Positions 4,025-53,839 of a stretch of 64,000 bases of DNA are shown here, piece after piece (positions within the stretch are counted from its first letter, which is position 1; each line of letters begins with the position of its first letter). Made by a program: the position numbers and the translations under genes. The stretch spans positions 1 through 64,000 of the forward strand of contig LADP01000032.1 in assembly GCA_000961575.1 (NCBI GenBank). Direction: 5' to 3'. Below the pieces are notes generated by a model. It was not told the DNA's origin. It saw nothing but the letters and a program-made list of their open reading frames with translations, and searched no databases. The stretch comes from Peptococcaceae bacterium BRH_c8a (GTDB lineage: Bacteria; Bacillota; Desulfotomaculia; Desulfotomaculales; Desulfallaceae).

Positions 4025-4037
4025 AAAACCAGCTCTC

Positions 4038-36740: not shown

Positions 36741-37985
36741 TCACAAATTCTGGTTTAAGTCGATGCACAGTATGTACCGGCGGTCGTTTTCCGGTACTTT
36801 GAACAGCGTGGAAATAGTAATGCACAGGTTGCCCGAGGCCAGTGATATGTATGGGGCAGTGGTAAACCTTTGCATGCCGGTATTGGTTAACAGGTAATAA
36901 TAGTCCTTTAGGGAATGATCCGCCCCCTTGGGAGCGGGGCGGAATATGGAGCCTCTGTGACTTAAAATGTTCCGGTAGTTACAAAAGGTGTCACTGATCT
37001 GGATGCCCTGCTCGTCAAGCAGGTAAATACATTCCAGGTTAGGATGCTGGCTGATTAAATCTTTTAGTAGAGCGTTGTACGCTCCTGAATTTACTGCCGA
37101 CAAGTTGTGAATAATGTGGTTGGCGATGGTCTGGTAGCGCATGTGCCTGTATTTGGCATCATTAATCTTATTTACCATGTAGTTCTTAAACTTGTCCGAA
37201 ATTAAATTAATGCGCTCTTTAAAAACCTGCAAATCATTTCCTAACATCGCCATCGGCCTTGAGAAATAAAATCCCTGGAGCATGTCTACGCCTAATTCCA
37301 GGGAAGTTATGGCTTCATCTTCCCGTTCCACACCTTCTGCCACCACCAGGGTACCAATTCTTTTAGCCAGATTGACCAATGATTTAAGCACTTCCTGCTT
37401 GTGATAGTTTATGTCGATTCCTGAGATCAAAGAGCGATCAATTTTTAGCAGGTCCGGCTTGGTAATGGTAATCCGGTCCAGGTTGGAGTAACCCGAGCCG
37501 ATGTCATCAAGGGCAAACAAAAAACCGTATTCCCGGTGTCTGTTGATAAACTCATTCAGCGCCCTAGTGTCGTTGACCCTGGATTCAATTATTTCAATGA
37601 CCACATTGTTGGGGTTAAGATTAAGCTGCCGCACCTGGTTCAGCAGGTGTCCGGAACCCACTATGCCCAGGTCGATTATAGATGTGTCAAAATTCATGAA
37701 CAGGATTATATCCCGGTTCTTAAGATCCAGGCTATTGAAATTTTCCATGGCTTTTTGCCTGCACAACCGATCCAGGTCCAGAGTCAGGTTGTTTTCTTCA
37801 GCCAGGCTAAAAAGGGTATTGGGGGGCAATATACCGCCACTGTCGGGACAGATGCCCCGGGATAGAGCTTCCAACCCAATGACGGATTTCTTTTTTACAG
37901 ATACGATGGGCTGAAAATGTGTGATTATGCCCTTGTCATTGATTATTTTGCTGATGCTGCTGCTTCTCTTAACTGCCAGAGTCAT
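36741..37985 (-). CDS. EAL-domain protein (c-di-GMP phosphodiesterase) with C-terminal sensor
   Basis: The 414-residue protein has an N-terminal EAL domain (residues 10-250): IVSVKKKSVIGLEALSRG, MNFDTS, ALDDIGSGYSNLDR, KIDRSLISG and VVAEGVERE with the metal-binding acidic residues present, so it should be active. There is no GGDEF domain and no membrane segment. The C-terminal 160 residues look like a PAS/Cache-type sensor (CIYLLDEQGIQISDTF, YISLASGNLCITIS). The adjacent disrupted receptor gene has a similar C-terminal sensor. Confidence 0.9.
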   Translation of the reverse strand: MTLAVKRSSSISKIINDKGIITHFQPIVSVKKKSVIGLEALSRGICPDSGGILPPNTLFSLAEENNLTLDLDRLCRQKAMENFNSLDLKNRDIILFMNFDTSIIDLGIVGSGHLLNQVRQLNLNPNNVVIEIIESRVNDTRALNEFINRHREYGFLFALDDIGSGYSNLDRITITKPDLLKIDRSLISGIDINYHKQEVLKSLVNLAKRIGTLVVAEGVEREDEAITSLELGVDMLQGFYFSRPMAMLGNDLQVFKERINLISDKFKNYMVNKINDAKYRHMRYQTIANHIIHNLSAVNSGAYNALLKDLISQHPNLECIYLLDEQGIQISDTFCNYRNILSHRGSIFRPAPKGADHSLKDYYYLLTNTGMQRFTTAPYISLASGNLCITISTLFKVPENDRRYILCIDLNQNL

Positions 37986-38033
37986 AATATGTGCACCCTA
38001 CGTTTTTAGTTTCGTAACAAGCAATTGTTCAGG

Positions 38034-39413
38034 TTAATTTAATATCTGCGCCATAACACCGATTACCCCGCGCCCGTCAAGGATGGGAATCGAAACCGTG
38101 ATGCAGGGCTGCCTGGTTATGGCCGATATGTATACCGGTGATGTGATTGCTTGCCCGGCCATGGCCTTTTGCCACCATTCCCTGACCCCGGCATTAGCCA
38201 AACCGGCGGGGGGCTGAGAGTAAATAAAGCTGCCCGTGTTATCGTTGGACCAAATTGCTTCTATATCCGTGTTTTCTGTTTTTAATTCCGACAAAACTGT
38301 TTTGTGGCTGTAGGGTTCCATGGTTTGAATATCCCTCTGGTTGGCTGCCCGGAGCATAATCTCTTTTAAGTCGTTGATGCGTGATGCCACTTCCTGATTA
38401 ACCAGGTATGTTAAACTATTATCGTGAGCGACCTGTTCCAGATTTTCGGCCAACTCATGCATTAACCGGCCGGTATTTTTTACCCCTTCCAGGTCTTTTT
38501 GGCGTGATTCCAACACTGCCGCTGTTTGCTGGAGTGAATCGTTGGCGGTATTCAGGCTGTCCCCGGCTGTGGTGCTGACCCTTTGCATCAGATTGAAACT
38601 ATTGCTTAGAGTTTCCTCGGCGTTTTTAATCTGAGCCGCGGCAGAGGTTGATGAATTTAAGCTGTCGGTAATGCTTTCCACCACTGAATCCACTTTTTGC
38701 TGCATTTCTGCCAACACGCTGAAGGCTTGCTGAACTGCTCCGGCGGTATGATCGGAAAGTTTGCTTATTTCTTCCAGCTACCACCGAAAAGCCCCGGCCG
38801 TGTTCACCTGCCCGTGCTGCTTCAATGGTGGCGTTCAGGGCCAGCAGCTTGGTTCGGCCGGATATGGCGCCAATATTCTCTGCAATGGATTGAACTTGGC
38901 CAACGGCAGTTTCCAGGTGCCTATGTGTTCTTTTAACTCTTTATTGCCGCCGGTAATGTCAAGCACGGCCTTATTTACCCGCCCCATGGCGAAATTAACT
39001 TCCCGGACTGCGGTTTCGCTGGCGGAAAAGTCATTTTCCAGGGCGGCGCTGGTTTGCCGCAGGGCAGCAGCCAGCTGTTGCATTTGTTTAAATGCTACCG
39101 CAATGTCGGAAACTGAATGTACCGAGGTTTCCATCTGGCTGTGGGCCGCCCGGACCTGCTGAGAGGTCAGCTGTATTTCCTGGGCCATTGTTTTTGCCTG
39201 GCCAGACAACTCGTACACGGCCGTACTTAAAACTGCTAATTCGCCTGTGCCGATGATTTTTTTTGTAGCTGGGAGTTCAACATTACGCCAGCCAGATGCC
39301 CTGCTGGCTATTTTTTTAGCGCCATTAATATAGCGTTTACGCAAATTGATACAAACAGCTGTTCCCAGGGTGGCGGCCACCGCAAAACCGGTTAGAAATT
39401 CGATCAGAACCAT
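38034..39413 (-). pseudogene. Methyl-accepting chemotaxis-like receptor, broken by two compensating frameshifts
   Basis: Read leftward from ATG 39413 (after AAGGGGG), one membrane helix (LIEFLTGFAVAATLGTAV) leads to a helical signalling region. Near 38917 the frame slips by one base; the signalling hairpin [20 protein letters not shown] then [17 protein letters not shown] continues in the new frame to about 38774, where a second slip restores the first frame ([17 protein letters not shown], then AEMQQKVDS). The C-terminal part ends in a Cache-like sensor (WSNDNTGSFIYSQPP, CITVSIPILDGRG). Sequencing error is possible, but two slips 140 bases apart suggest decay. Confidence 0.8.
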
Positions 39414-39596
39414 TAAAAACCCCCTTGTATAAAAAATAAAGCCACCCGCAAAACGGGCAGCTTCTTCGCCTAGTTGATACAACTTTGTATCTGTATTTAA
39501 TTAAGGCAGATTATAGTCTATTGTGTCGAAGTTGTCAATAAATTTAAAGCATAAAATGGATTTATTGCCAGCTGGTCAATCTTCCAAAAGTTGTTG

Positions 39597-39626
39597 TTGA
39601 TTTTTAATTCAACCAGGAATTATAAT
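39597..39626 (+). promoter_or_regulatory. Sigma-A-like promoter of nifV
   Basis: TTGATT at 39597 and TATAAT at 39621, 18-base spacer, upstream of the nifV leader. Confidence 0.5.
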
Positions 39627-39656
39627 TTCTTATACCCTAATAAAATTAAGAAATGA

Positions 39657-39735
39657 AAATACGATGTCGTATTTAAGGCAAAGATGCCCCCGTGACAGAG
39701 GTTAATTAATTCTCTGCAGGGGGTTTTTGTTTTTA
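39657..39735 (+). promoter_or_regulatory. ANTAR-type dual hexaloop leader with terminator, nifV
   Basis: P1: AAATAC/GTATTT, loop GATGTC (39657-39674). P2: GGC/GCC, loop AAAGAT (39677-39688). The terminator pairs CCCCC (39687-39691) with GGGGG (39719-39723), inner AGAG/CTCT, then TTTTTGTTTTT. P2 and terminator share the GCC bases. Confidence 0.8.
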
Positions 39736-39765
39736 TAAATCATAAGCAGGGGAGTGATAGTAAAA

Positions 39766-40653
39766 GTGCCGGTAGAGAAGAAACTATTTGCGCGCGGGCC
39801 TGCCATTGTTGACACCACTTTGCGAGACGGTGAACAGGCCCCGGGTGTGGCGTTTACCTTGCGGGAGAAAGTAACCATTGCCAGGCTTTTGGATCTGCTG
39901 GGGGTGGAAGTCATTGAGGCTGGTGTTCCAGCCATGGGAAAAATGGAACAGGATGTTGTGCGGGCTATATGCGAACTGGGTTTGAAATCCCGGGTGGCAT
40001 CCTGGAACCGCGTTCTACTTGCGGATATCAGGGCCTCACTGGCCTGCGGTGTTCGGGAAGTGCATATAACCGCCCCGGTATCGGATCTGCATATCAGGGA
40101 TAAATTGGGCAAGACCAGACACTGGGTAATGGATTGCTTGGTCAGGGCGGTCCGCTATGCCCGGGAACACGGATGCCGGGTATCAGTGGGTGCTGAGGAT
40201 GCTTCGAGGGCGGATTTTGGTTTTTTGCTTGAATATGCCCTATTGGCACAGGATGCGGGTGCCGAAAGACTGCGTTACGCCGACACGGTGGGGGCACTGG
40301 AACCTTTTACCACGCGGCGGATGGTAAGTATGCTAGTAAGCAAGCTGGATATTCCGGTGGAGTTTCACGGGCACAATGATTTTGGTCTGGCCACCGCCAA
40401 CAGCCTGGCGGCTTTTGCTGGCGGCGCGGCGTTTATCAGCACCACGGTGGGAGGTCTGGGTGAGCGGGCCGGCAATGCCAGTTTGGAGGATATGGTGTTG
40501 TTGTTCGGTGACAACTTTTGCTCTGCAAATGGTTTAAAAACCGGTGTCCTTGGGGCGCTGGGCAGGTACGTGGCCCGGGCCGCGAACCGGCCACAGCACC
40601 ACCATGTAATCCTGCGTCGGCCGGCATTAACCAGATTGATGATTGACAATTAA
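39766..40653 (+). CDS. nifV: Homocitrate synthase NifV, short form
   Basis: The 295-residue TIM-barrel protein condenses 2-oxoglutarate and acetyl-CoA to homocitrate, the organic ligand of FeMo-cofactor. [38 protein letters not shown] and [19 protein letters not shown] hold the substrate and metal residues. Typical NifV is about 380 residues; here the protein stops soon after the barrel ([14 protein letters not shown]), lacking the C-terminal helical part. Clostridial species are known with a two-gene NifV, but no second half is in this window. GTG 39766 fits GGGGAG upstream. Confidence 0.88.
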
Positions 40654-40680
40654 ACCTAAATGATATAAATTAAGCATAGT

Positions 40681-40754
40681 AAATACAAAGTTGTGTTTCT
40701 GGCGAAGGCGCCTTTGAGGTGAGTTTTTACCTGCGAAGGGCGTTTTGTGTTTTT
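40681..40754 (+). promoter_or_regulatory. ANTAR-type dual hexaloop leader with terminator, AAA+ regulator module 1
   Basis: P1: AAATAC/GTGTTT, loop AAAGTT (40681-40698). P2: GGC/GCC, loop GAAGGC (40701-40712). Terminator CGCC...GGCG with inner TTGAGGT/ACCT, 40709-40742, then TTTTGTGTTTTT. A TTGACA at 40643 overlaps the end of nifV and could be the -35 site. Confidence 0.75.
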
Positions 40755-40775
40755 AAGGATAAAAGTAAAATTAAA

Positions 40776-40840
40776 GCCCAACGTTGGGCATTATGGGCAT
40801 TGGGGCTGTTTCCGGTTAAATATCCGGCGGCCCTTTTTTG
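40776..40840 (+). promoter_or_regulatory. ANTAR-type dual hexaloop leader with terminator, AAA+ regulator module 2
   Basis: P1: GCCC/GGGC, loop AACGTT (40776-40789). P2: GGC/GCT, loop ATTGGG (40796-40807). Terminator GGGC/GCCC (40803-40806 with 40830-40833) around CCGG/CCGG, then six T. It ends 23 bases before the regulator start. Confidence 0.75.
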
Positions 40841-40862
40841 TTTTATTAGGGAGGTTTTAGTT

Positions 40863-42272
40863 TTGCAAGACGTACTTAAACTTTTAATCAACCTGACCCA
40901 AAAACTGGGGAGCGTACATCATTTCAACCGGGAAGTGGATGCTGTTATGGACTTATCCTACGATGGTATTTGGATTACAGACGGGACGGGAAAAACCGTC
41001 CGGGTCAACGGAGCGGTAGAAAGGATCACCGGTCTGGCCTCCGGGGCACTGCTGGGGCGTAACATCGATGCAGTAATGGATGGGGACATTATGGAAACTT
41101 GTTCCGGTTTGGATGCCTCCCAACAATCTATTAACGGAAGGCTGGTTATTGTTAATGGCTGCCCCATCCTGGATGATGCGGGAATCGTTGAGAGTTTGGT
41201 TTTTAACCTGCGGGAGCTGTCTGAACTGAACGAACTGAAGTCGGAATTGGAACAAGCCCGCTTCAAAATGGAAAAATACCATCGTGAGGCTGCCGAACTA
41301 CGCGCCCTTCGTATGGGCACCCAACGTCTGGTGGCCAACAGCAAGGCCATGGCTGACGTTATCGATGCCGTGCACAGGGTGGCACGGCTAAAAACCAGCG
41401 TATTGCTGGTGGGTAAGTCCGGGGTGGGCAAAGAAGCAGTGGCCAGGCTGGTTCACATGTCTGGCGGACAGAATGGTTCCTTCGTCAAGGTTAACTGCCG
41501 GTCCATTCCCGGCGAAATGCTGGAGATAATACTGTTTGGCCGTGAGCAGCAAGGAATGGCCGGCGAAAAAAGCTTGTTTGAGTTGGCTTCGGGAGGCACG
41601 CTTTTTATTAAGGAAGTGGCTGATATTCCTCCTAACCTGCAAAAAAAGTTGCTGGATGCCATTGCGGACGGGCAGATTACCAGGGTGGGCGGCACCATAC
41701 CGGTCAAGGTAGACGTGCGGGTTATCGCTGCGACCGAGAGGAATCTCAATAAGTTGGTTAAGTACAACAGAGTCCGTAAGGACTTTTGTACCGGTTTGAA
41801 TGCAGTTGCTATTTCCATTCCTCCGCTTAATAAGCGTAGGGAGGATATTCCGGTGCTGCTTCAATACTACACCCGCTTGTACAACGAAAAACATGACTGC
41901 AACAAGCGGTTGTCGATTAGGGCTATGGAACTGCTGGTAGACTACGAGTGGCCGGAGAATGTAAGGGAATTGGTTAACTTGGTGGAAAGGCTGATTATCA
42001 CTGTGGAACAAAAATTGATTATGCCTAAACACCTGCCTTCGTACATTTTTAAGAGTGTGAACAGGAGAGAAAACAATAACTTCAAGCCGCTTAAAGAGGC
42101 GGTGGCGGAGTTGGAATTCGAGCTGATTAAAAATGCCGTTGACATTTATGGAAGCACGTATAAAGCTGCCCATATCCTGGGCGTGAGCCAGCCGACAGTG
42201 GTGCGCAAGCTCCAGAAATATGCAAAGAAGGCGCCCGAGGTGCCCAGTGTTTCCGCGGCTGAAGGGAGTTAA
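40863..42272 (+). CDS. PAS/AAA+/TyrR-type HTH regulator with degenerate sigma-54 motifs
   Basis: The 469-residue protein has a PAS domain (residues 25-110, MDLSYDGIWITDGTGKTVRV), a coiled linker, an AAA+ domain (155-395) and a C-terminal HTH (KAAHILGVSQPTVVRKL). It sits where nifA would be. But the GAFTGA loop needed to touch sigma-54 is reduced to EQQGMAGEKS, Walker B reads LFIKEV instead of LFLDE, and one arginine-finger position is lost (FCTGLNA for YYRLNV). Walker A (GKSGVGKE) is kept. It probably acts like TyrR, without sigma-54. TTG 40863 follows GGGAGG; open codons upstream are leader. Confidence 0.82.
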   Translation: MQDVLKLLINLTQKLGSVHHFNREVDAVMDLSYDGIWITDGTGKTVRVNGAVERITGLASGALLGRNIDAVMDGDIMETCSGLDASQQSINGRLVIVNGCPILDDAGIVESLVFNLRELSELNELKSELEQARFKMEKYHREAAELRALRMGTQRLVANSKAMADVIDAVHRVARLKTSVLLVGKSGVGKEAVARLVHMSGGQNGSFVKVNCRSIPGEMLEIILFGREQQGMAGEKSLFELASGGTLFIKEVADIPPNLQKKLLDAIADGQITRVGGTIPVKVDVRVIAATERNLNKLVKYNRVRKDFCTGLNAVAISIPPLNKRREDIPVLLQYYTRLYNEKHDCNKRLSIRAMELLVDYEWPENVRELVNLVERLIITVEQKLIMPKHLPSYIFKSVNRRENNNFKPLKEAVAELEFELIKNAVDIYGSTYKAAHILGVSQPTVVRKLQKYAKKAPEVPSVSAAEGS

Positions 42273-42407
42273 TAAAATAATTGGCTATTATCTAATATTT
42301 AGCGGTATTTTAATAAATAAGTTAACGAATTAGTTAAAGGTTTAATTAAATGAATTATTTAAAAATTACAATATAATTGCATTAACCGATTTATTATTAA
42401 TTAACCA

Positions 42408-42436
42408 TTGCGCTACAATATTGAATCTGTTATAAT
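42408..42436 (+). promoter_or_regulatory. Sigma-A-like promoter of nif operon
   Basis: TTGCGC at 42408 and TATAAT at 42431 with a 17-base spacer. Transcription would start near 42443, a few bases before the first leader hairpin. No sigma-54 TGGCAC-N5-TTGC element was found. Confidence 0.75.
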
Positions 42437-42455
42437 GCAATTAATTCAATTAGCG

Positions 42456-42518
42456 GGTACGTTGTTGTACCAACAGAAGATGGCATTGACGCCGGTGAAG
42501 CAGCCGGCGTTTAGTATT
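42456..42518 (+). promoter_or_regulatory. ANTAR-type dual hexaloop leader, nifH module 1 (weak terminator)
   Basis: P1: GGTAC/GTACC, loop GTTGTT (42456-42471). P2: GGC/GCC, loop ATTGAC (42482-42493). Terminator ACGCCGG/CCGGCGT (42489-42510) is followed by TTTAGTATTT, a broken T run. Confidence 0.75.
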
Positions 42519-42530
42519 TAATTAAATATC

Positions 42531-42601
42531 CGATACGTTGCAGTATCGATACCAGTTTTAGGCGAGGGCGCCGGTATTTAAACACCGGTGCCCTTCCCTT
42601 T
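42531..42601 (+). promoter_or_regulatory. ANTAR-type dual hexaloop leader, nifH module 2 (weak terminator)
   Basis: P1: CGATAC/GTATCG, loop GTTGCA (42531-42548). P2: GGC/GCC, loop GAGGGC (42561-42572). Terminator GGGCGCCGGT / ACCGGTGCCC (42566-42593), tail TTCCCTTT. Confidence 0.75.
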
Positions 42602-42629
42602 ACAAGGAGATCTCCCGATCCCAGGGTAA

Positions 42630-42698
42630 TTACATTGTGGTAACAAAGCAGGCATTGAGGCCGTTGCAGCCCGTCAGGGTTTCGCCGGCCTCTTTTTT
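42630..42698 (+). promoter_or_regulatory. ANTAR-type dual hexaloop leader, nifH module 3 (strong terminator)
   Basis: P1: TTAC/GTAA, loop ATTGTG (42630-42643). P2: GGC/GCC, loop ATTGAG (42651-42662). Terminator GAGGCCG/CGGCCTC (42657-42692), tail of six T. It ends 36 bases before the nifH ATG. Confidence 0.8.
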
Positions 42699-42727
42699 AT
42701 TAACCAAAATCAGTATGGGAGGAATGA

Positions 42728-43558
<831 letters not shown>

Positions 43559-43569
43559 AGGGTCTGGCC

Positions 43570-43647
43570 CTTAACTTATTATTAATACACCAGCAAGCTC
43601 TTTAACGCTAACATTAACACTCAGAAAAAAAGTTTCAATAAGTTAAG
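43570..43647 (+). other. Long-range hairpin between nifH and nifI1
   Basis: CTTAACTTATT at 43570 is the exact complement of AATAAGTTAAG at 43637, and flanking bases extend the pairing imperfectly (GGTCTGG / CCTAACC). No T run follows. It may protect the nifH 3' end and so give more NifH than the downstream proteins. Confidence 0.55.
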
Positions 43648-43684
43648 AGCCTAACCCCAAATATTTCGATTGGAGTGATAACCA

Positions 43685-44014
43685 ATGTTAATGATTAGAG
43701 CCATAGTACGTCCGGAAAAAACTAATATCATCCTGGCCGAACTAAACAGCGCCGGTTTCCCCGCGGTAACCCGGATCGACGTGGTGGGCCGTGGCAAACA
43801 GCGGGGCGTAAAAGTGGGCGAAGTGATTTACGATGAGATCCCCAAAGATATGCTGATGCTGGTGGTGCAGGACGAAAAAGATAAGGAAGACGTAATCAGC
43901 ATCGTATCCAAGTACGCCAAAACAGGCGAAAAGGGCGCCTTCGGTGACGGCAAGATTTTCGTCACCCCGGTGGAGGAAGCTTATACCATCAGCAGCGGCA
44001 CTAAGGGTTTATAG
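43685..44014 (+). CDS. nifI1: P-II-like nitrogenase switch-off regulator NifI1
   Basis: The 109-residue P-II-family protein starts MLMIRAIVRPEKTNIILAEL and has the GKIFVTPVEEAYTISSG end strand. The T-loop region (VVGRGKQRGVKVGEVIYDEIPK) lacks the uridylylation tyrosine setting of GlnB. In methanogens and clostridia NifI1 and NifI2 form a complex that binds NifDK and stops activity when ammonium is high, sensing 2-oxoglutarate and ATP/ADP. Location between nifH and nifD is diagnostic. Confidence 0.95.
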   Translation: MLMIRAIVRPEKTNIILAELNSAGFPAVTRIDVVGRGKQRGVKVGEVIYDEIPKDMLMLVVQDEKDKEDVISIVSKYAKTGEKGAFGDGKIFVTPVEEAYTISSGTKGL

Positions 44015-44017
44015 ATG

Positions 44018-44072
44018 AAAGGGGACACACCTCAGCTTATGGGTCAATGCTTTGGGGTCGAGGAATGTCCCC
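44018..44072. repeat. GGGGACACACC...GGAATGTCCCC repeat between nifI1 and nifI2
   Basis: AAAGGGGACACACCTCAGCT and GGTCGAGGAATGTCCCC flank a short centre. Nearly the same unit lies between nifI2 and nifD. Confidence 0.9.
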
Positions 44073-44093
44073 ATTTGAGGAGGGAGGAACAAC

Positions 44094-44474
44094 ATGAAAG
44101 AGATTATTGCTATTATCCGGATGAATAAAGTTAACCCCACCAAAAAGGCCCTGGCCGATATCGGGGTTTGCGGACTGCATGCTATGAAAGTGATGGGCCG
44201 GGGCAAAATTCACGTGGACCTGTCCGTGCTGCACGAGATAGGCGCCACCGAGGAAATAGCCGGTATAGTTACCGACAGTCTGTCCAAGGGCAGCAGGTTG
44301 ATCCCCAAACGTTTGCTCACCATCTTGGTTCAGGATAACGAAGTTGAAAAAGTGGTTTCCACCATCACCAGTGTCAACAAGGAAGGCAATAAAGGCGACG
44401 GTAAGATATTCATTTGCCCGATTTTGGACGCCGCACGGGTAAGAACCGGCGAGCGGGGCGAATTGGCAGTGTAG
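44094..44474 (+). CDS. nifI2: P-II-like nitrogenase switch-off regulator NifI2
   Basis: A 126-residue P-II-family protein, MKEIIAIIRMNKVNPTKKAL at the start and GDGKIFICPILDAARVRTGE at the end. The central T-loop section (LHEIGATEEIAGIVTDSLSKGS, in part) is longer and unlike GlnB/GlnK, as usual for NifI2. It partners NifI1. GAGGAGGGAGG stands upstream. Confidence 0.95.
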   Translation: MKEIIAIIRMNKVNPTKKALADIGVCGLHAMKVMGRGKIHVDLSVLHEIGATEEIAGIVTDSLSKGSRLIPKRLLTILVQDNEVEKVVSTITSVNKEGNKGDGKIFICPILDAARVRTGERGELAV

Positions 44475-44477
44475 TGG

Positions 44478-44532
44478 AAAGGGGACACACCTCAGCTCAA
44501 AGGACGGGCTTTGGGGTCGAGGAATGTCCCCA
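44478..44532. repeat. GGGGACACACC...GGAATGTCCCC repeat between nifI2 and nifD
   Basis: Second nif-internal copy, ending 23 bases before the nifD start. Shares GGTTTTGGGGTCGAGGAATG-like centre (TTTGGGGTCGAGGAATGTCC) with the previous copy. Confidence 0.9.
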
Positions 44533-44554
44533 AGTAATAAAGGGGGCGGTAGTT

Positions 44555-46192
44555 TTGGCTATCAGTGAAAAAATGCTCGACGAAATTCTAAACAAGTATC
44601 CCGCCAAGGTGAAGCGCAACCGTAAAAAACACATCCTGGTTAAGGATTTGGGCCAGGATCAACAGGAAATAGAGGCCAACACCCGGACCATCCCGGGGGT
44701 CATCACCAACCGCGGCTGTGCCTTTGCCGGTTGCAAGGGCGTGGTGCTGGGACCGCTCAAGGACATGGTGCACATCGTACACGGTCCCATCGGCTGCGCT
44801 TACTACAGTTGGCTGACCCGGCGCAATAAGGCGAAGACGGACGACCCGAAGAAAAACTTCTTGGCCTACTGCGTGTCCACCGACATGCAGGAAAGCGATA
44901 TCGTATTCGGGGGCGAAAAGAAACTGGCCCGCATGATCGACGAAGTGGTGGAAGTATTCAAACCCAACGCCATCACCATCTCCGCCACCTGCCCGGTGGG
45001 CCTGATCGGCGACGATATCCAGGGCGTGGCCAGGGCGGCCCGGGACAAACACGGCCTAAACATTACGGCTTACAATTGCGAGGGGTACAAGGGAGTCAGC
45101 CAGTCCGCCGGTCACCACATCGCCAACAATAACTTAATGGAACATATTATCGGCCAGGGCGACCTGGAAGAGCCGCCCGGCAGGTACACCATTAACATCC
45201 TGGGTGAGTACAACATCGGTGGCGACAGCTGGGAAGTGGAACGGGTACTGTCCGAGATTGGCTACGAGATCCAGGTGGTGATGACCGGCAACGGCTCATA
45301 TGAAAAACTGAAAAATGCCCACGTGGCACAGCTCAACCTGGTGCAGTGCCACCGGTCGATCAATTATATTGCCGATATGCTGGAAACCAGGTACGGCACC
45401 CCGTGGTTAAAGGTGAACTTCATCGGCATCCGGGGCATCTCTGAGTCGCTGCGCAATATGGCCCGCTATTTCGGAGACGAAGCTTTAATCCAACGCACCG
45501 AAGAGGTTATTGAGAGAGAACTGGCCGAGATTGAGCCGCAGCTTGAGCCATACCGCAAAATATGTGCGGGTAAAACTGCCTTTTGTTTCGTAGGTGGTTC
45601 CCGCGGCCACCATTACCAGGGCTTATATGAGGAACTGGGCATTACCACGGTGCTGGCGGGTTACGAATTTGCCCACCGGGACGATTACGAGGGCCGGGAA
45701 GTGCTGCCGCACGTAAAAACCGACGCCGACAGTAAGAATATCCCCGACCTGCATGTGACCCCGGATGAGCGACGCTACCGGCTTAAAATCCCGGTGGAAA
45801 GAATGGATGAACTAAAAAAAGAAATCCCTTTAAGCAATTATAACGGCATGATTGAAGAAATGATGGAAGGCAGTATCGTGGTGGACGATCTGAACCACTA
45901 CGAAACCGAGGAGTTCATTCGCATCTTGAAACCCGATATTTTTTCCTCGGGCATCAAGGACAAATATATACCCCAGAAGATGGGCATACCCACCAAACAG
46001 CTGCACAATTACGATTACAGCGGGCCTTACGCAGGTTTCAGGGGCGCGGTGAATTTTGCCCGGGACGTGGCCATGGGGTTTGCCACTCCCACCTGGAACT
46101 TCATCGAGCCGCCGTGGAAAAGTAAACCGCTACTGGAGGGCACCATCGAACCATGCTCGACTAATAAATGTGCGGAGGAGGTAGGAGCTTAA
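44555..46192 (+). CDS. nifD: Nitrogenase molybdenum-iron protein alpha chain
   Basis: The 545-residue subunit carries FeMo-cofactor and half of the P-cluster. P-cluster cysteines are in NRGCAFAGCKG, HGPIGCAYYSW and ISATCPVGLIGDD; the cofactor cysteine is in LVQCHRSINY and the cofactor histidine in KQLHNYDYSGPYAG. An additional segment of about 50 residues (between AHRDDYEG and DDLNHYET, with LKIPVERMDELKK) is typical of clostridial NifD. TTG 44555 after GGGGGCGG is chosen; codons before it are repeat sequence. Its TAA touches the nifK ATG. Confidence 0.97.
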   Translation: MAISEKMLDEILNKYPAKVKRNRKKHILVKDLGQDQQEIEANTRTIPGVITNRGCAFAGCKGVVLGPLKDMVHIVHGPIGCAYYSWLTRRNKAKTDDPKKNFLAYCVSTDMQESDIVFGGEKKLARMIDEVVEVFKPNAITISATCPVGLIGDDIQGVARAARDKHGLNITAYNCEGYKGVSQSAGHHIANNNLMEHIIGQGDLEEPPGRYTINILGEYNIGGDSWEVERVLSEIGYEIQVVMTGNGSYEKLKNAHVAQLNLVQCHRSINYIADMLETRYGTPWLKVNFIGIRGISESLRNMARYFGDEALIQRTEEVIERELAEIEPQLEPYRKICAGKTAFCFVGGSRGHHYQGLYEELGITTVLAGYEFAHRDDYEGREVLPHVKTDADSKNIPDLHVTPDERRYRLKIPVERMDELKKEIPLSNYNGMIEEMMEGSIVVDDLNHYETEEFIRILKPDIFSSGIKDKYIPQKMGIPTKQLHNYDYSGPYAGFRGAVNFARDVAMGFATPTWNFIEPPWKSKPLLEGTIEPCSTNKCAEEVGA

Positions 46193-47578
46193 ATGCTGGA
46201 CTGTACGCCCAAGGAACTAATTGAACGTACCGGCGGGATGATTAACCCCGCCAAGACATGTCAGCCCATCGGCGCCATGTACGCCGCCCTGGGCATTCAC
46301 AACTGTATGCCGCACAGCCACGGTTCCCAGGGCTGCTGCGCCTATCACCGCTCGCACTTGACCCGGCACTTCCGGGAACCGGTGATGGCCACCACCAGCT
46401 CTTTCACCGAGGGCGCCTCGGTGTTCGGGGGCGGCGGCAACCTGAAAACCGCCATTAAAAACGTATTTGCCATCTATAACCCGGACGTTATGGCGGTACA
46501 CACCACCTGCCTGTCGGAAACTATCGGGGACGACGTTCCCACCATCATCAAGTCCGCCGAAGTTCCCGAGGGTAAACTGGTTATCCACGCCAACACGCCC
46601 AGTTACCAGGGTTCACATATCACGGGCTTTTCCAACATGGTCAAGGGAATGGTAACTTACTTGGCCCGGGCCACAGCAGAGGATAAAAAGGAGCAGGTGA
46701 ATATCATCCCCGGCTTTGTCAATCCCGGAGACATGCGGGAAATCAAGCGCCTGGCGGACAGTATGGGCATCAAGTTCATCATGTTTCCGGACACTTCGGG
46801 GGTGCTGGACTCGCCCATGACCGGCAAGTTTCACATGTTCCCCGCCGGCGGCGCCCGGGTGGATGATATCAGGGACGCGGGAAATTCCAAACTTACTCTG
46901 GCCCTGGGCTACTATGCATCCAGTGATGCCGCCCACCTGCTGGAAAGAAACTGCCAGGTGCCGGCGGTTACGCTTAAAACACCTATCGGGATCAAGGCCA
47001 CCGATGAATTATTGATGCTGCTGCGGGGCAAGTTCGTCCGGGAAATACCCTATGAGCTGGAAGAGGAACGCGGCCAACTGGTGGATGTAATGACTGACTG
47101 TCACCACCACTTTTACGGCAAGAAAGTGGCTATTTTCGGCGACCCGGACATCATTATCGGACTGACGGAATTCGTTTTGAGCCTCGGCATGCGGCCGGTT
47201 CATGTGCTCACCGGTACCCCCGGTGCAACGCTGGGCGGCCCCAAGGGCATATTGGAAAAGGAAATTAAAGCCATGCTGGCTGCCTCCGGGCTGGAAGGCC
47301 GGGTTAAGGCGGCGGGTGACCTGTTTGAACTACACCAATGGATTAAAAACGAGCCCGTTGATCTTTTAATGGGCAACACTTACGGCAAGTACATCGCCCG
47401 GGCCGAAGACATCCCCTTCGTGCGGGTGGGATTCCCGGTAATGGATCGCAGCACCCACCCCTATATGCCTATCGTAGGCTACCGGGGCGCCTTGCGACTG
47501 GTGGAGATGATCAGCAGCGCGTTGCTGGATCGCCAAGACCGTGACGCCGCGGACGAAGACTTGGAACTGGTGATGTAG
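46193..47578 (+). CDS. nifK: Nitrogenase molybdenum-iron protein beta chain
   Basis: The 461-residue beta subunit has the P-cluster cysteines in AKTCQPIGAMYAALG, SHGSQGCCAYHR and HTTCLSETIGDD. It is the short clostridial form without the N-terminal extension of proteobacterial NifK (about 520 residues). ATG directly follows the nifD stop (TAAATG), so the two are made in equal amounts. GGAGC lies upstream within nifD. Confidence 0.97.
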   Translation: MLDCTPKELIERTGGMINPAKTCQPIGAMYAALGIHNCMPHSHGSQGCCAYHRSHLTRHFREPVMATTSSFTEGASVFGGGGNLKTAIKNVFAIYNPDVMAVHTTCLSETIGDDVPTIIKSAEVPEGKLVIHANTPSYQGSHITGFSNMVKGMVTYLARATAEDKKEQVNIIPGFVNPGDMREIKRLADSMGIKFIMFPDTSGVLDSPMTGKFHMFPAGGARVDDIRDAGNSKLTLALGYYASSDAAHLLERNCQVPAVTLKTPIGIKATDELLMLLRGKFVREIPYELEEERGQLVDVMTDCHHHFYGKKVAIFGDPDIIIGLTEFVLSLGMRPVHVLTGTPGATLGGPKGILEKEIKAMLAASGLEGRVKAAGDLFELHQWIKNEPVDLLMGNTYGKYIARAEDIPFVRVGFPVMDRSTHPYMPIVGYRGALRLVEMISSALLDRQDRDAADEDLELVM

Positions 47579-47608
47579 GGGGAGAGTGAAGGAGACAGTA
47601 GTCAGTAG

Positions 47609-47730
47609 TCAGGAGTCAGGAGAAAACGGAAAGATTTAAATAAAGAATTCAGGATAGGGGCCAGGGGACGGAGTCAGGTATTGCAATTCTTCTTACTTGT
47701 TCATTCTGAATTCTGACTCCTGACTCCTGA
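47609..47730. repeat. Inverted AGGAGTC repeat between nifK and nifE
   Basis: TCAGGAGTCAGGAG at 47609 and its exact complement CTCCTGACTCCTGA at 47717 can form a 14-bp stem enclosing about 94 bases. The same 7-bp unit occurs in tandem at 56174-56206. Confidence 0.8.
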
Positions 47731-47761
47731 ATTCCTATATTTAAGAAAGATGTGATTAAAA

Positions 47762-49177
47762 ATGTCAACGGCTGTACCGAATGAAAATTTGATTACGGAA
47801 AGGCAATTATCTATCCTGGTCAAGGGAAGGCAGCGGAAAAACCAGCTCAAGTGCGACGCCGAAAGTATCGCCGGATGCGTCAGCCAGCGGGCCTGCGTAT
47901 ACTGCGGGGCCAGGGTGGTGCTGAACCCGGTTACCGACGCCATCCACCTGGTGCACGGCCCCATCGGCTGCGCCAGTTACACCTGGGACATCCGGGGCAG
48001 CCTGAGCAGCGGGTCTGAACTGTACCGCAATAGCTTTTCCACTGATTTGAAGGAAAACGACGTCATCTTCGGCGGCGAAAAGAAACTGGCCCGGGCCATC
48101 GATGAACTGGTGGAAAAGTACCCCGCCGAACTGGTATTCGTGTACTCCACCTGCGTGGTGGGAGTAATCGGTGACGATCTGGAGGCAGTCTGCCGGGCGG
48201 CATCCCAAAAGCATGGCATCAAAATAATTCCCGTCCAGTCCAGCGGCTTTATCGGCAACAAATCGGCGGGTTACCGGGCGGCCTGTGATGCCCTGCTGCG
48301 GCTTATCGAGCCGGCGGGGGAACCCCGCCCGGTGAAAAGGTTAAACCCGGTGCCAAGCGTCAACTACCTGGGGGACTTCAACCTGGCCGGCGAGGCCTGG
48401 ATCATCGGCGACTACCTGAAACAGATCGGCGTCGAAGTTAACGTGGTGTTCACCGGGGACAGCAACTACCGGGATTTGAAAAAGGCCCCGCAGGCTACAC
48501 TGAATATCATGCAGTGCGCCGGTTCCATGGCTTACCTGGCTCGGCGCATGGAGGAGCTTTACGGCATTCCATCCATGCAGGTCTCGTTCCTGGGACTGGA
48601 TGACACCGCGGCGTCACTGCGTAACATAGCATCATTCTTAAACGACCCGGAGATGAAGCGCCGGGTCGAGGAATTAATCCGCCGTGAAACCGCTGCCGTC
48701 AAGCCGCAAATTGAACATTACAGGAGCAAATTGCTGGGTAAGAAAGCGGCGGTTTACGTGGGCGGTGGTTTTAAGGCTATCTCGTTAATCAAACAGTTCA
48801 GGGAAATAGGCATTGATGTGGTCATGGTGGGTACTCAAACCGGCCGGGAAGAAGAATACCAGACACTGCACGACATATCCGATGACGGCACGGTGATCCT
48901 GGATGACGCCAACCCCTCCGAACTGGAGCGGTTCATGACTGAAAAGGGCGCTCACCTTTTGGTCGGTGGGGTTAAGGAAAGGCCCCTGGCTTACAAGCTG
49001 GGGGTAGCTTTCATCGACCACAACCACGACCGCAAGCACCCTTTAAGCGGTTACGTGGGCGCGGTGAACTTTGCCCGGGAGGTTTACTCCACGGTGTGCT
49101 CACCGGTTTGGAAATATACCCGGGAGATTGGAGGTGGACTCTTTGCCGCGGGAAAAAACGCACTACCGGAACGTTAA
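47762..49177 (+). CDS. nifE: Nitrogenase cofactor scaffold NifE
   Basis: A 471-residue NifD paralogue that with NifN matures the iron-sulfur core (NifB-co) into FeMo-co before transfer. Cluster cysteines in RACVYCGARVV, HGPIGCASYTW and YSTCVVGVIGDD; another in IMQCAGSMAYL. No strong ribosome site, only a purine stretch (AAGAAAGATG). It overlaps nifN by 35 bases. Confidence 0.96.
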   Translation: MSTAVPNENLITERQLSILVKGRQRKNQLKCDAESIAGCVSQRACVYCGARVVLNPVTDAIHLVHGPIGCASYTWDIRGSLSSGSELYRNSFSTDLKENDVIFGGEKKLARAIDELVEKYPAELVFVYSTCVVGVIGDDLEAVCRAASQKHGIKIIPVQSSGFIGNKSAGYRAACDALLRLIEPAGEPRPVKRLNPVPSVNYLGDFNLAGEAWIIGDYLKQIGVEVNVVFTGDSNYRDLKKAPQATLNIMQCAGSMAYLARRMEELYGIPSMQVSFLGLDDTAASLRNIASFLNDPEMKRRVEELIRRETAAVKPQIEHYRSKLLGKKAAVYVGGGFKAISLIKQFREIGIDVVMVGTQTGREEEYQTLHDISDDGTVILDDANPSELERFMTEKGAHLLVGGVKERPLAYKLGVAFIDHNHDRKHPLSGYVGAVNFAREVYSTVCSPVWKYTREIGGGLFAAGKNALPER

Positions 49178-50534
49178 CGAAAATCCATGCAATATGTGCA
49201 TGCCCATGGGCGGCATCCTGCCCTTCAAAGGCATCGAGGACGCCATGGTGATTATCCACGGTTCCCAGGGTTGCAGCACTTACATGCGGCGGCATATCGC
49301 CGAGCATTTCAACGAGCCCATCGACGTAGGGTCCTCATCGCTGAACGAAAAAGGGACTATTTACGGCGGGGCCCAAAACCTATTCCAGGCCCTGAATAAT
49401 ATCCGCCGGGTGTATAAACCCCGGTTAATCGGCATCCTCACCTCCTGCCTGGCGGAAACCATCGGGGATGATGTGGGTGGTATCGCCCGCGATTACCTGA
49501 AACAACAGGGGTTGGATGAATTTCCGCTGGTGGCGGTTGCCACTCCCGGCTACGGCGGCACCCACAGCGAGGGCTACTGGATGGCGGTGTACAAGATAGT
49601 GGCCGGCCTGGCCCGGCCCACCGCAAAGCACGGCGGCATAAACATCATCGTGCCCAACCTGAGCCCCGCCGATATCAGGGAAATCAAGCGCATCCTGGAA
49701 ATGATGGGCGTCCGGTACACCCTGCTGCCCGATATTTCGGAAACCTTGGACCGGCCCATCGCCCGCCCTTATACCAAGATCCCGCCCGGCGGCACAGGGT
49801 TGGAAGACATCCGGTGTATGCCGGGGGCAGCGGCCACTATCCAATTCGGCTTAACAGTTGAAGAGAGCCTATCGCCGGGACATTATTTACAATCCGAGTT
49901 CGGGGTACCCCTGTATAACCTGCCGGTGCCCATGGGTGTGGAGGCCACCGATCTGTTGGTCAGTCGGCTTTTGGAAATAACTGGTGGCAGTTTGCCCCGG
50001 GCGCTGGAACTGGAGCGAGGCCGGCTGTTGGATTGCATGGTGGATTCACACAAGTACAATGCCCAGGGCCGGGGGGCTGTTTTTGGTGACCCGGAACTGG
50101 TTTACGCCATGGCGCGGACCTGTGCGGAAAACGGCCTGCACCCGGCCGTAGTGGCCACCGGCAGCGGGAACAGCGGTCTTAAAAGATTGATGGAACCAGT
50201 ACTGGCGGAGTGTCCGGAAGATGTACTGTTTTTGGACCAGGCTGATTTTATGAGCATCCGAACAGCGTGCCGGGATGCCGGGGTGAACATAGCCATCGGC
50301 CATTCCGACGGTAAATTTCTCACCGAAAAGGAAGGTATTCCCCTGGTGCGAATGGGTTTTCCCATCCACGACCATGTGGGCGGGCAGCGGTTGCTTTCGA
50401 TTGGGTATACCGGCACCGCCATGTTCCTGGATCGGGTCACCAACACTTTACTGGATAACAAGCATAAAAACTACCGCGCTGCCATGTACCGGAAGTTTTA
50501 TTGGGGCTTTAAGGAAAGGGGACACACCTGCTGA
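49143..50534 (+). CDS. nifN: Nitrogenase cofactor scaffold NifN
   Basis: A 463-residue NifK paralogue and partner of NifE: ENPCNMCMPMGGILPFKG, IIHGSQGCSTYMRRH, LTSCLAETIGDDVGG. TTG 49143 with GGAGGTGG upstream, inside the nifE end, is chosen. The last residues (after FYWGFK) ERGHTC come from a GGGGACACACC repeat, which also provides the stop, so the natural C-terminus was overwritten. No NifB or NifX fusion. Confidence 0.95.
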   Translation: MPREKTHYRNVNENPCNMCMPMGGILPFKGIEDAMVIIHGSQGCSTYMRRHIAEHFNEPIDVGSSSLNEKGTIYGGAQNLFQALNNIRRVYKPRLIGILTSCLAETIGDDVGGIARDYLKQQGLDEFPLVAVATPGYGGTHSEGYWMAVYKIVAGLARPTAKHGGINIIVPNLSPADIREIKRILEMMGVRYTLLPDISETLDRPIARPYTKIPPGGTGLEDIRCMPGAAATIQFGLTVEESLSPGHYLQSEFGVPLYNLPVPMGVEATDLLVSRLLEITGGSLPRALELERGRLLDCMVDSHKYNAQGRGAVFGDPELVYAMARTCAENGLHPAVVATGSGNSGLKRLMEPVLAECPEDVLFLDQADFMSIRTACRDAGVNIAIGHSDGKFLTEKEGIPLVRMGFPIHDHVGGQRLLSIGYTGTAMFLDRVTNTLLDNKHKNYRAAMYRKFYWGFKERGHTC

Positions 50535-50661
50535 ACTAAAGAGGACAGGGGACACACCTCTCAAATAGGAACGGGGACACACCTCTCTTAAAGGTATGTT
50601 TTTGGGGCTGAGGAATGTCCCCAATTGGTGGGTCAAGACTTTGATGTCGAGGAATGTCCCT
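50515..50661. repeat. Compound GGGGACACACC repeat block between nifN and nifB
   Basis: Three left halves (GGGGACACACC) and two right halves (GAGGAATGTCCC) in series. The first left half is translated as the end of NifN. Several alternative hairpins are possible. Confidence 0.9.
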
Positions 50662-50702
50662 AAATATACAGCGTTACTGCGCGGAGAGTTGAGGTGAATA
50701 CA

Positions 50703-51656
50703 ATGACCTGTGGCTGTGATAAGAACACTCATGCGGAGCGGGTATTGCCCGGCACTCTTGAAATGACCGGGCGGCATCCCTGCTATTCATACCAGGCCCA
50801 TCATAAGTACGCCCGGATGCACCTGCCGGTGGCACCCAGGTGCAATATTGGCTGCAATTACTGCAACCGCAAATTCGACTGTGTTAACGAGAGCAGGCCC
50901 GGTGTAACCAGCGAGGTGCTGACCCCCGAAGCCGCCCGGGACAAATTCCTGCTGGTGCGGGAAAAGGTGCCCAACCTCAGCGTGGTGGGTATCGCCGGGC
51001 CGGGGGACGCCCTGGCCAATTGGGGTAGCACTAAAAAATCTATTAAACTGATCAGGGAAGCCGACCCCGAAGCTATTTTCTGCTTGTCCACCAACGGTCT
51101 GATGCTGCCGGATTACGCCGGAGAGATAGTTGAGCTGGACGTCAGGCACGTAACTGTAACCGTTAACTGCCTTGATTCCGCTACCGGAGCCCGGATTTAC
51201 CGGCATGTCAATTACCGGGGCCAGGTATTGCGGGGAACGGCGGGGGTCGAAATTCTGCTGGGCAACCAGCAAAAAGGGGTCGAGTACTTGGCCCGCAGCG
51301 GGGTATTGGTGAAAGTGAACATAGTAATGATTAAGGGTATCAACGACGGGCATATTCCCGCAGTGGTGCAGCGGGTGAAGGAACTGGGCGCTTTTATTAC
51401 CAACATCATGCCTCTGGTGCCCGCGCCGGGTAGCGTATTCCAGCACTTTGCCCCCACCAACAAATCGGAACTGGATCGCATGCGCGATCTTTGCGGCCAG
51501 GATATGCGCCAGATGCGCCACTGCAAACAGTGCAGGGCCGATGCCATCGGCCTGCTGGGCGACGACCGATCCCTGGAATTCAGCACCGCCGGAAAGCAAA
51601 GGGATGCAAATTGCAGCGACTGTGCCCAGTCGGACAAAGTGGCCGCGGTATCATAA
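50703..51656 (+). CDS. nifB: FeMo-cofactor biosynthesis radical SAM protein NifB
   Basis: The 317-residue radical SAM enzyme makes NifB-co, the 8Fe-9S-C core. SAM-cluster motif CNIGCNYCNRKFDC, VVGIAGPGDALANW, and additional cluster cysteines near the end (MRHCKQCRADAIG). It lacks the C-terminal NifX-like domain, the compact form common in Firmicutes and archaea. ATG 50703 after GAGGTGA is preferred over GTG 50694. Two further cysteines follow (ANCSDCAQ). Confidence 0.96.
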   Translation: MTCGCDKNTHAERVLPGTLEMTGRHPCYSYQAHHKYARMHLPVAPRCNIGCNYCNRKFDCVNESRPGVTSEVLTPEAARDKFLLVREKVPNLSVVGIAGPGDALANWGSTKKSIKLIREADPEAIFCLSTNGLMLPDYAGEIVELDVRHVTVTVNCLDSATGARIYRHVNYRGQVLRGTAGVEILLGNQQKGVEYLARSGVLVKVNIVMIKGINDGHIPAVVQRVKELGAFITNIMPLVPAPGSVFQHFAPTNKSELDRMRDLCGQDMRQMRHCKQCRADAIGLLGDDRSLEFSTAGKQRDANCSDCAQSDKVAAVS

Positions 51657-51682
51657 AAAAGAATTATTGCAATTGGGTTTAA

Positions 51683-51729
51683 ATGCCAGCAACTTGCAAC
51701 AAAATCAACTTGCAACACCTGGCACCAAA
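51683..51729. repeat. Partial GGTGCCAGG-family repeat (AACTTGCAACACCTGGCACC)
   Basis: Right half of the family, preceded by a short second copy of CAACTTGCAAC. Directly before the ferredoxin ribosome site. Confidence 0.7.
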
Positions 51730-51751
51730 GCCAGAGGGAGGTTTACATTGG

Positions 51752-52063
51752 ATGAACAAACCCAAACATCATATATTCGTGTGCACCAGCGCCAGGGCTG
51801 TAGGTCAGCCCAAGGGTTTGTGCCACGGCAAGTCATCGGTGGATATACTATCGGCTTTTCTGGAGGAAATTGAAGACCAGGGATTGTCCGGAGAGATATT
51901 TATCTCCAACACCGGTTGCCTGGGCCTCTGCGAGCAGGGCCCCGTGGTAATCGTTTACCCTGGCAACGTCTGGTACGGGGGCGTGTCTCCCGACGATGTG
52001 GAGGAAATCATGGAGGAACACATCCTGGGCGGTAAAGTGGTGGAGCGCCTGTTGATTAGTTAA
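51752..52063 (+). CDS. Thioredoxin-like [2Fe-2S] ferredoxin
   Basis: A 103-residue ferredoxin of the clostridial/Azotobacter nif-linked type. FVCTSARAVGQPKGLCHGKS gives the first two cysteines and NTGCLGLCEQGP the last two, the family pattern for one [2Fe-2S] cluster in a thioredoxin fold. In the nif setting it may donate electrons or bind NifDK. ATG 51752 follows GAGGGAGG. Confidence 0.9.
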   Translation: MNKPKHHIFVCTSARAVGQPKGLCHGKSSVDILSAFLEEIEDQGLSGEIFISNTGCLGLCEQGPVVIVYPGNVWYGGVSPDDVEEIMEEHILGGKVVERLLIS

Positions 52064-52069
52064 TGGCTA

Positions 52070-52122
52070 TATTTTACAGTCAACTTGCAACAAATTTAAC
52101 TTGCAACACCTGGCACCAAAGC
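52070..52122. repeat. Partial GGTGCCAGG-family repeat before AnfO-like gene
   Basis: Two CAACTTGCAAC half-units and CACCTGGCACC end, as in the preceding junction. Confidence 0.7.
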
Positions 52123-52141
52123 CGGGGGGGGGTGGACAATA

Positions 52142-52771
52142 GTGGCGTTTGACATAGCGGTTTATGTGAATGATCACGGTAAAACAGCATCCCTGAACGA
52201 TTCGGGAAAGCTGGTAGTATACCGTAAAAGGCAGGGCGCTTGGAAAGTATGCCGGGAAAAGGAGTTTATCCCGGCTGAGGCGTCCGGCATGAGCGGGCTG
52301 CGCCGGATGATGGGTGATTTTCTTGATTTTATGGGCGAGTGCAAGTTTTTCGTGGGGCATGCTGTGACCGGGATACCTTATTTCGAGCTGGAAAAATCGG
52401 GCTGCACGGTCTGGGAAATGCCGGATAGACCCGGTGAATGGCTGGATTACATCCTAGAACAAGAGGAAAGCGAGCAGCGGCAGGAAAATAAAAAACCGCT
52501 GGTAGCAGTGCCGGTGCCGGAAGAAGTTGGTGCAGGGCGCTTCCGGGTTTCCATAAAAGAAATTCAGGACAGCGGCGGCGGCATTACTTCCAAGCAGGTG
52601 CTGCAGCCTTTCCTGCGGCGGGGCAAGTTTTACGAGCTGGAAGTTTTCTGCAGCCATGTGCCGCCCTGGTTGGAAGCGGAATTTGCCACCGGCGTGCTTA
52701 AGGGAGACGTGGTTAGCGCCAGTAACGACGAAATCAGGCTTATTATTTCAAGGCGGTGCTGTCTAACGTAA
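52142..52771 (+). CDS. AnfO-like nitrogenase accessory protein
   Basis: A 209-residue soluble protein that resembles the AnfO family, named from iron-only nitrogenase clusters. An N-terminal half (MAFDIAVYVNDHGKTASL, CKFFVGHAVTGIPYF) looks like the NifX/ribonuclease-H-like fold of cofactor-binding proteins; the C-terminal half has RVSIKEIQDSGGGITSKQVL. No anfHDGK genes are in the window, so it probably serves the molybdenum enzyme. GTG start after GGGGGGTGG. Family call moderately sure. Confidence 0.6.
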   Translation: MAFDIAVYVNDHGKTASLNDSGKLVVYRKRQGAWKVCREKEFIPAEASGMSGLRRMMGDFLDFMGECKFFVGHAVTGIPYFELEKSGCTVWEMPDRPGEWLDYILEQEESEQRQENKKPLVAVPVPEEVGAGRFRVSIKEIQDSGGGITSKQVLQPFLRRGKFYELEVFCSHVPPWLEAEFATGVLKGDVVSASNDEIRLIISRRCCLT

Positions 52772-52788
52772 TAATAAATGGTATGGCA

Positions 52789-52833
52789 AATCCCGCTCGA
52801 TTACAAATCGGGCGGGGTTATTCTTGCTTTTTG
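52789..52833 (+). terminator. Terminator-like hairpin after nif operon
   Basis: CCCGCTCGATT / AATCGGGCGGG stem followed by a T-rich tail, 18 bases after the AnfO-like gene. Probable end of the nif transcript. Confidence 0.65.
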
Positions 52834-53022
52834 GGCAACGTAAAGAACCACAGCAACATATGAGTGCACACTAGGGTAGCCATGTTAGGTTGGCCCCGCT
52901 TTTAAAACATAAAGCCACACAGGCTCCGGTAAATCGAGTGAAAAAACCTTGACAGGGAAAGTTTGCAATAATACCTTATATTAAAACAGGCAATTAATCA
53001 TTTTGGGTTGGAGGTTGAAGCT

Positions 53023-53709: not shown

Positions 53710-53839
53710 AGAGACTTAGTATCTGAGTAAAAATTATTAAAAATAAAAACCCTTTTAATATGACTAAAATATATAATAGTTTTAAATATGAGTCGATCAA
53801 GTGGAAAAAAATATACATAGTGGATTAAGGTGATAAATT

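Follow-up and report, generated by a model that had tools for sequence, protein, structure and literature searches.

Sigma-54 activators, their GAFTGA-less relatives and ANTAR regulons

In sigma-54 activators (bEBPs), the GAFTGA loop L1 contacts sigma-54, and the Walker B glutamate and the arginine fingers drive the power stroke in PspF and NtrC1, according to excerpts of PMC7175178. Some bEBPs act without this contact. As described in excerpted text of PMC10274813, the GAFTGA-less NtrC proteins of R. capsulatus and Caulobacter and VpsR of Vibrio act at sigma-70 promoters, and two of the three control nitrogen genes; R. capsulatus NtrC needs ATP binding and no hydrolysis, and one GAFTGA-less bEBP needs no ATP. 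A second described system acts on RNA. ANTAR antitermination of nif and other nitrogen genes has been published, with at least 13 modules in Desulfotomaculum acetoxidans (Ramesh et al., 2012; PMC3369931, in part), where dual hexaloop hairpins with A/G at loop position 1 and G at position 4, overlapping a terminator, lie 5' of nif, gln and ammonium transport genes.

The locus described here lies in the nif island of a Firmicute whose family includes Desulfoscipio geothermicus DSM 3669 and Desulfotruncus alcoholivorax; the window is the whole 64,000-nt stretch of DNA that was analysed. To our knowledge, nif regulation has been little studied in this Gram-positive diazotroph group. The ANTAR layer of the window, with the same hairpins, terminators and target genes, is a new member of the already published regulon type. 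It differs from the regulons in the excerpts of PMC3369931 in that a bEBP-derived regulator gene itself belongs to the regulon. Like the two NtrC proteins and VpsR, the regulator has a bEBP fold without the L1 sigma-54 contact; unlike these response-regulator-type proteins of Proteobacteria (PMC10274813, in part), it is a Firmicutes protein with a PAS domain, and the Walker B aspartate and one arginine finger are missing as well. The loss of GAFTGA likely arose independently in the regulator and in NtrC/VpsR, which were compared by description, outside our alignment. A limited open-access search, which included parts of PMC3369931, PMC10274813, PMC12316311 and PMC7175178, found no description of a sigma-54-dead bEBP under ANTAR control or in the nif cluster of a Firmicute. 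On balance, the sequence of the regulator points to a former sigma-54 activator that now probably serves as a DNA-binding regulator at sigma-A promoters.

Domains and lost motifs of the regulator

The interval singled out by the first-pass annotation (40681-42272) comprises a leader and the regulator gene. The coding sequence (40863-42272, plus strand; 469 aa) likely starts at the TTG at 40863, with GGGAGG just 5' of it. Since the TTG-CAA-GAY start is common to both D. geothermicus copies of the gene, 40681-40862 is the leader. The gene order of the island is nifV-like, regulator, nifH, nifI1, nifI2, nifD, nifK, nifE, nifN, nifB-like, fdx and anfO, where the names nifH to nifN were assigned from the sequences without a family search. 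The nifV-like gene 5' of the regulator (39754-40653, plus strand) has its own ANTAR module at 39658-39689, and downstream of the regulator lies nifH (42734-43558, plus strand), the first gene of the nif operon. The homocitrate-synthase-like product of 39754-40653 is short, covering positions 3-266 of the 365-position NifV model with a score below the cut-off. Divergent from nifV, behind an ANTAR module at 39486, the minus strand (36741-39482) carries an EAL-domain gene and an MCP-like region in two frames (38034-38717 and 38835-39482); an EAL homologue (52%) also adjoins nif in Pelotomaculum PtaU1.Bin035.

The Pfam domains of the regulator are PAS (residues ~24-130), Sigma54_activat (PF00158, 145 bits; the degenerate AAA+ domain, 157-322), AAA_lid_14 (324-403) and HTH_50 (44.6 bits; 410-453), the last of which we take to be the TyrR-type HTH. 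They bear out the PAS, AAA+ and Fis/TyrR-type HTH architecture proposed in the first-pass annotation, and the presence of the Sigma54_activat and Fis/TyrR-class HTH domains shows that the protein is of the sigma-54 activator type by descent. In the alignment, GAFTGA is replaced by LFGREQQGMA-----GEKS (L1 codons 41535-41573, plus strand; aa 225-237), and Walker B reads LFIKE in place of the usual LFLDE (I-K-E at aa 249-251; 41607-41615, plus strand). In the arginine-finger region (41775-41795, plus strand), the first finger is kept (R305) and the second is changed to glycine (R311G). The Walker A lysine, the Walker B glutamate and the sensor II arginine stretch (NVREL) are all kept.

The alignment holds the window protein and a homologue from each of 38 loci, beyond which further matches existed. 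At 36 of the 38 loci the homologue is canonical, in that it has G[AS]F[TS]GA, the DE of Walker B and the two arginine fingers. GAFTGA, the Walker B aspartate and the second arginine finger are absent only in the window protein and in two D. geothermicus copies, together called the trio below. L1 is variable within the trio (QQGMA-----GEKS in the window protein, QSGVV-----SQTG and PVDSRKYGTRGEKG in the D. geothermicus copies), with a five-residue deletion in two members and a scrambled sequence in one. In the same order, Walker B reads IKE, ITE and IKE, and the finger region VRKDFCTGL, FLRDLSKEL and FKKDLYDSL. The replacement of GAFTGA and of the Walker B aspartate, noted before from the window sequence, thus extends to both D. 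geothermicus copies; the loss of one arginine finger holds for the window protein but not for these relatives, in both of which both fingers are gone. Position 2 of Walker A is basic throughout the trio (K/R/K) and is E, D or P in all 36 canonical homologues. VARNLH and LFRS are presumably c-di-GMP-binding residues in FleQ; the former corresponds to VARLVH in the regulator and the latter is absent. An AlphaFold model of the regulator built from two sequences reached a pLDDT of 40 and was not used.

Conservation, origin and distribution of the trio

We compared the conservation of the domains between the trio, which amounts to three sequences from two genomes, and the canonical homologues. In the core, 52 columns reach at least 95% invariance among the 36 canonical homologues; 10 of these are changed in all three trio members, including G230, F232 and T233 of GAFTGA, D250 of Walker B and R311 of the finger. 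The near-invariant columns of the lid are kept in 10 of 11 cases, the exception being G365E with the same residue in each member, and those of the HTH in 4 of 4. Within the trio, identity is 83-91% in the HTH, 68-72% in the lid and 50-64% in the AAA+ core. Canonical pairs have the opposite order, the core being better conserved than the HTH in 625 of 630 pairs with a largest HTH excess of 0.02, whereas the excess of HTH over core in the three trio pairs is 0.27, 0.38 and 0.33. Even among the 493 canonical pairs with a core identity of.48-.66, HTH identity reaches a maximum of 0.58, compared with 0.83-0.91 in the trio.

The motif loss together with this inverted conservation indicates that the ATPase and sigma-54 functions are gone and that DNA binding is held. 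The relaxed AAA+ core, the variable L1 and the narrow distribution of the gene (2 of 113 genomes of the order) would also suit a decaying bEBP that has lost its sigma-54 function, is drifting towards a pseudogene and lies beside nif incidentally. We regard such decay as improbable, because the HTH and the lid have been held at 83-91% and 68-72% while the core drifted, the frames are open in all three copies, the gene has been duplicated and retained in D. geothermicus, and the leader and promoter are conserved between the window and one D. geothermicus copy (C40). The pattern in the sequences is that of a conversion in which selection would have kept DNA binding and released the ATPase, and not that of random decay.

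In the tree, the trio is monophyletic (support 1.00) within Firmicutes PAS-type bEBPs, with a weakly placed neighbour (locus L004, 0.78); E. coli TyrR and R. phaseoli NifA, the one NifA included, lie on branches distant from it. The NCBIfam scores are all far under their cut-offs, with PrdR the best (294 bits, cut-off 795), followed by NifA (TIGR01817; 226.5, cut-off 528.85) and TyrR (184, cut-off 576). PrdR and other Firmicutes PAS-type bEBPs are therefore closest by profile and tree neighbourhood and have the same architecture, and the aligned homologues among them are canonical sigma-54 activators. The likeness to NifA is that of a bEBP next to nif genes; the aligned NifA differs in its canonical motifs, its HTH and its distant branch. 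The motif losses, the tree placement and the NifA score agree with the earlier view that the protein is neither a standard NifA nor a working sigma-54 activator. TyrR has a PAS-type N-terminus and a TyrR-type HTH. The description of the regulator as TyrR-like stands for the HTH type and the absence of GAFTGA, which is also missing from E. coli TyrR in the alignment, but not for the Walker B aspartate and the two arginine fingers, all of which E. coli TyrR keeps.

At E <= 1e-110, the regulator gene occurs in 2 of 16 family genomes. All further matches, in 113 genomes of the order and 398 across the phylum, have E >= 1e-109 and 42-44% identity, and the loci retrieved from these weaker matches are all canonical. 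Among 17 named nif loci, the regulator gene is present only in D. geothermicus; a 35% match on the opposite strand at one further nif locus (L090) is a distant bEBP. In Desulfotruncus alcoholivorax, D. arcticus and one more relative genome (G013), nifV is followed by the nifH leader with no regulator between them. The term nifA-position, applied to the gene in the first-pass annotation, is thus misleading, since relatives have nifV-nifH without the regulator and the regulator groups apart from NifA. Its absence from other nif loci indicates that the regulator was inserted or arose at the nif site in one lineage, and it is non-essential for nif control because relatives with ANTAR-controlled nifH manage without the gene.

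The window copy is 63% identical to the D. geothermicus C40 copy, with the same five-residue L1 deletion and a near-identical leader, and 56% identical to the copy at the nif position of that species (C53). This closer likeness to the C40 copy suggests, from the sequences compared, that the gene was duplicated and that copies were exchanged. The C40 copy lies behind an aconitase-like gene; the opposite strand carries an NAD-synthase-like gene (both names read from sequence), and amtB-glnK is found 3 kb further on, so that the copy neighbours amtB without being its operon partner. A nif remnant without nifH or regulator occurs in a species of the same genus as the source of the window (G001:C73, reverse strand, 3037-4214); it consists of the first 194 residues of nifV (91% identity), a short nifD-like fragment and two ANTAR modules of a nifH leader.

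Antitermination, promoters and the proposed circuit

The leader contains two units of a dual hairpin and a terminator, as the two antitermination modules of the first-pass annotation implied. Module 1 (40682-40713, plus strand) has P1 AATAC-AAAGTT-GTGTT and P2 GGC-GAAGGC-GCC, and its covariance-model match (9.2e-5) is that of a member of the training set; the 5' arm of terminator 1 (40708-40755, plus strand; -17.1 kcal/mol, z -2.4) overlaps its P2. Module 2 (40775-40808, plus strand), also in the training set, has P1 GCCC-AACGTT-GGGC and P2 GGC-ATTGGG-GCT, the latter overlapped by the 5' arm of terminator 2 (40802-40848, plus strand; T-run, -17.5 kcal/mol, z -2.8). The dual hairpins of the regulator on their own are indistinct from shuffles (z -1.2 and -0.3). 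Three further modules (42456, 42532 and 42629) lie in the nifH leader (42456-42702, plus strand).

A search of the window for two C-G-closed hexaloop hairpins with A/G at loop position 1 and G at position 4 gave 14 matches, of which 13 were kept; five mononucleotide shuffles gave 0 each. The match at 17666 was dropped as it has no terminator and its second stem is not GGC. By search position, the kept modules precede an amt gene (20373), the MCP-like gene (39486, minus strand), nifV (39663), the regulator (40687, 40780), nifH (42461, 42537, 42634), gln (54536, 54665) and amtB (59322, 59425, 59502). A T-run is present in 11 of the module-search matches and absent at 42461 and 42537. On 20 aligned modules, hairpin covariation is 0.498 compared with 0.152 in shuffles (0 of 500 as high), five pairs have substitutions on both sides (30 of 500 shuffles reach this number), and slid controls stay at or below 0.119. 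The covariance model has 17 matches in the genome at E <= 0.5, 15 of them on the contig of the window, and all 16 family genomes contain matches. Because window modules were in its training set, the independent support comes from a second amtB leader (71109-71309), a match on another contig (C39:147152) and the relatives. This second amtB-glnK pair, just beyond the window on the same contig, has the same three-module ANTAR leader. At the gathering threshold, Rfam gave no match.

Two ANTAR response regulators are encoded in the genome (C39), both immediately behind a glnA-type gene; such a pair possibly forms a glutamine-synthetase-to-ANTAR signalling unit, and a histidine kinase was not found inside 1.5 kb. 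One of the two also adjoins a glutamate-synthase-like gene; in D. geothermicus, a third ANTAR regulator (C40:72986) lies beside a histidine-kinase-like gene. In tandem, the first module has a TAC/GTA P1 stem and the second a CC/GG stem, an order that recurs at 40687/40780, 54536/54665 and 59322/59425/59502, and the amtB set adds AGC/GCT as a third. The number of ANTAR proteins does not explain the order. A simple two-class code with one protein per stem class was rejected because five single-ANTAR genomes (G006, G011, G012, G014 and G015) also carry CC/GG modules.

The regulator has a sigma-A-like promoter (TTGACA-17-TAAATT; 40643-40671, plus strand), and the D. geothermicus C40 copy has TTGACA-17-TATAAA at the same place. 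Sigma-A-like hexamers also lie 5' of nifV, nifH, gln, amtB and the MCP-like gene, and a sigma-A-like box pair is present in 13 of 14 promoter stretches examined, the D. geothermicus C53 regulator having only a poor pair. A simpler scan of 39400-42800 gave five sigma-70-like sites compared with 4.8 in shuffles, which is no enrichment. No sigma-54 site of the -24/-12 type with at least 10 of 11 matches is present in 39400-54400, and a relaxed sigma-54 pattern gave 22 matches in the window compared with 40 expected. Applied to the 36 canonical bEBP loci, the scan for at least 10 matches picked up sites at 11 of them (shuffled mean 3.8, maximum 11) and perfect sites at 3 (shuffled 0.1, maximum 1), indicating that it has some, modest power. 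The island promoters look sigma-A-like, as first proposed, and no strong sigma-54 site accompanies the nif island, while the two closest relatives of the regulator share its losses, so that no close homologue with an intact GAFTGA was found.

The check for rpoN that had been called for found it present and intact in the genome (476-residue frame); it is present in 15 of 16 family genomes, and the genome without a match is 86% complete. With rpoN present and nine further homologues (E <= 1e-60) in the same genome, the regulator could in principle still work through sigma-54 by other contacts or sit as an inactive subunit in rings of canonical bEBPs. We consider this very unlikely, as all three key elements are lost in every trio member and no strong sigma-54 sites lie near the nif, amtB or gln promoters.

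The regulator could also silence without activating, either as a DNA-binding repressor or by competing with another activator for its site. DNA binding is the part preserved, and repression is among the actions of at least one bEBP without GAFTGA, namely Caulobacter NtrC at hvyA and sciP (PMC10274813, in part). At E <= 1e-9 the genome encodes no further protein with a similar HTH, which leaves the regulator without an obvious canonical competitor. The nifH -35 box is weakest (3 of 6 matches) in the two promoters with the regulator and stronger (4-5 of 6) in four without it, taking the top-scoring pair, which fits activation better, although these numbers are too small to argue from. Silencing is a secondary reading to which we assign a modest chance, somewhat above that of decay. 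In an operator search of 12 promoter stretches of the two regulator-bearing genomes, the only gapped dyad beyond chance was ATTGACAAT, which contains the -35 box, and the two nifH upstream regions share one 11-mer, TTAAAGGTTTA, within chance expectation.

Returning to the favoured reading of a former bEBP at sigma-A promoters, we propose that the AAA+ domain would serve as a nucleotide-binding oligomerisation scaffold without ATP hydrolysis, with the PAS domain supplying the signal. The HTH would bind sites in nitrogen promoters, nifH being the first candidate, in a nucleotide-gated or constitutive manner. The regulator would be made only once ANTAR antitermination is on, so ANTAR would permit elongation and the regulator would tune initiation. 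RNA polymerase needs ANTAR to read through two terminators ahead of the regulator gene and as many as three further ones ahead of nifH, which would make the arrangement a feed-forward loop. The earlier idea of a DNA-binding regulator placed under an RNA-level switch is thus probably right, with expression under antitermination and a sigma-A-type action. More tentatively, and with less confidence than in the general reading, a Firmicutes lineage may have turned a sigma-54 activator into an ATP-gated sigma-A activator (binding without hydrolysis) under ANTAR control, in a coherent feed-forward loop with nifH that bypasses rpoN.

The trio would represent a sigma-54 activator caught after conversion, with its ATPase and sigma-54 contacts eroded, its DNA-binding domain nearly frozen and rpoN retained in the genome. 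The change from a bEBP to an ordinary regulator is open to test with the three natural variants and the 36 canonical homologues aligned with them. In this group of Gram-positive diazotrophs, such a regulator would link two separate levels at which nitrogen fixation is controlled, antitermination on the RNA and regulation of the promoter.
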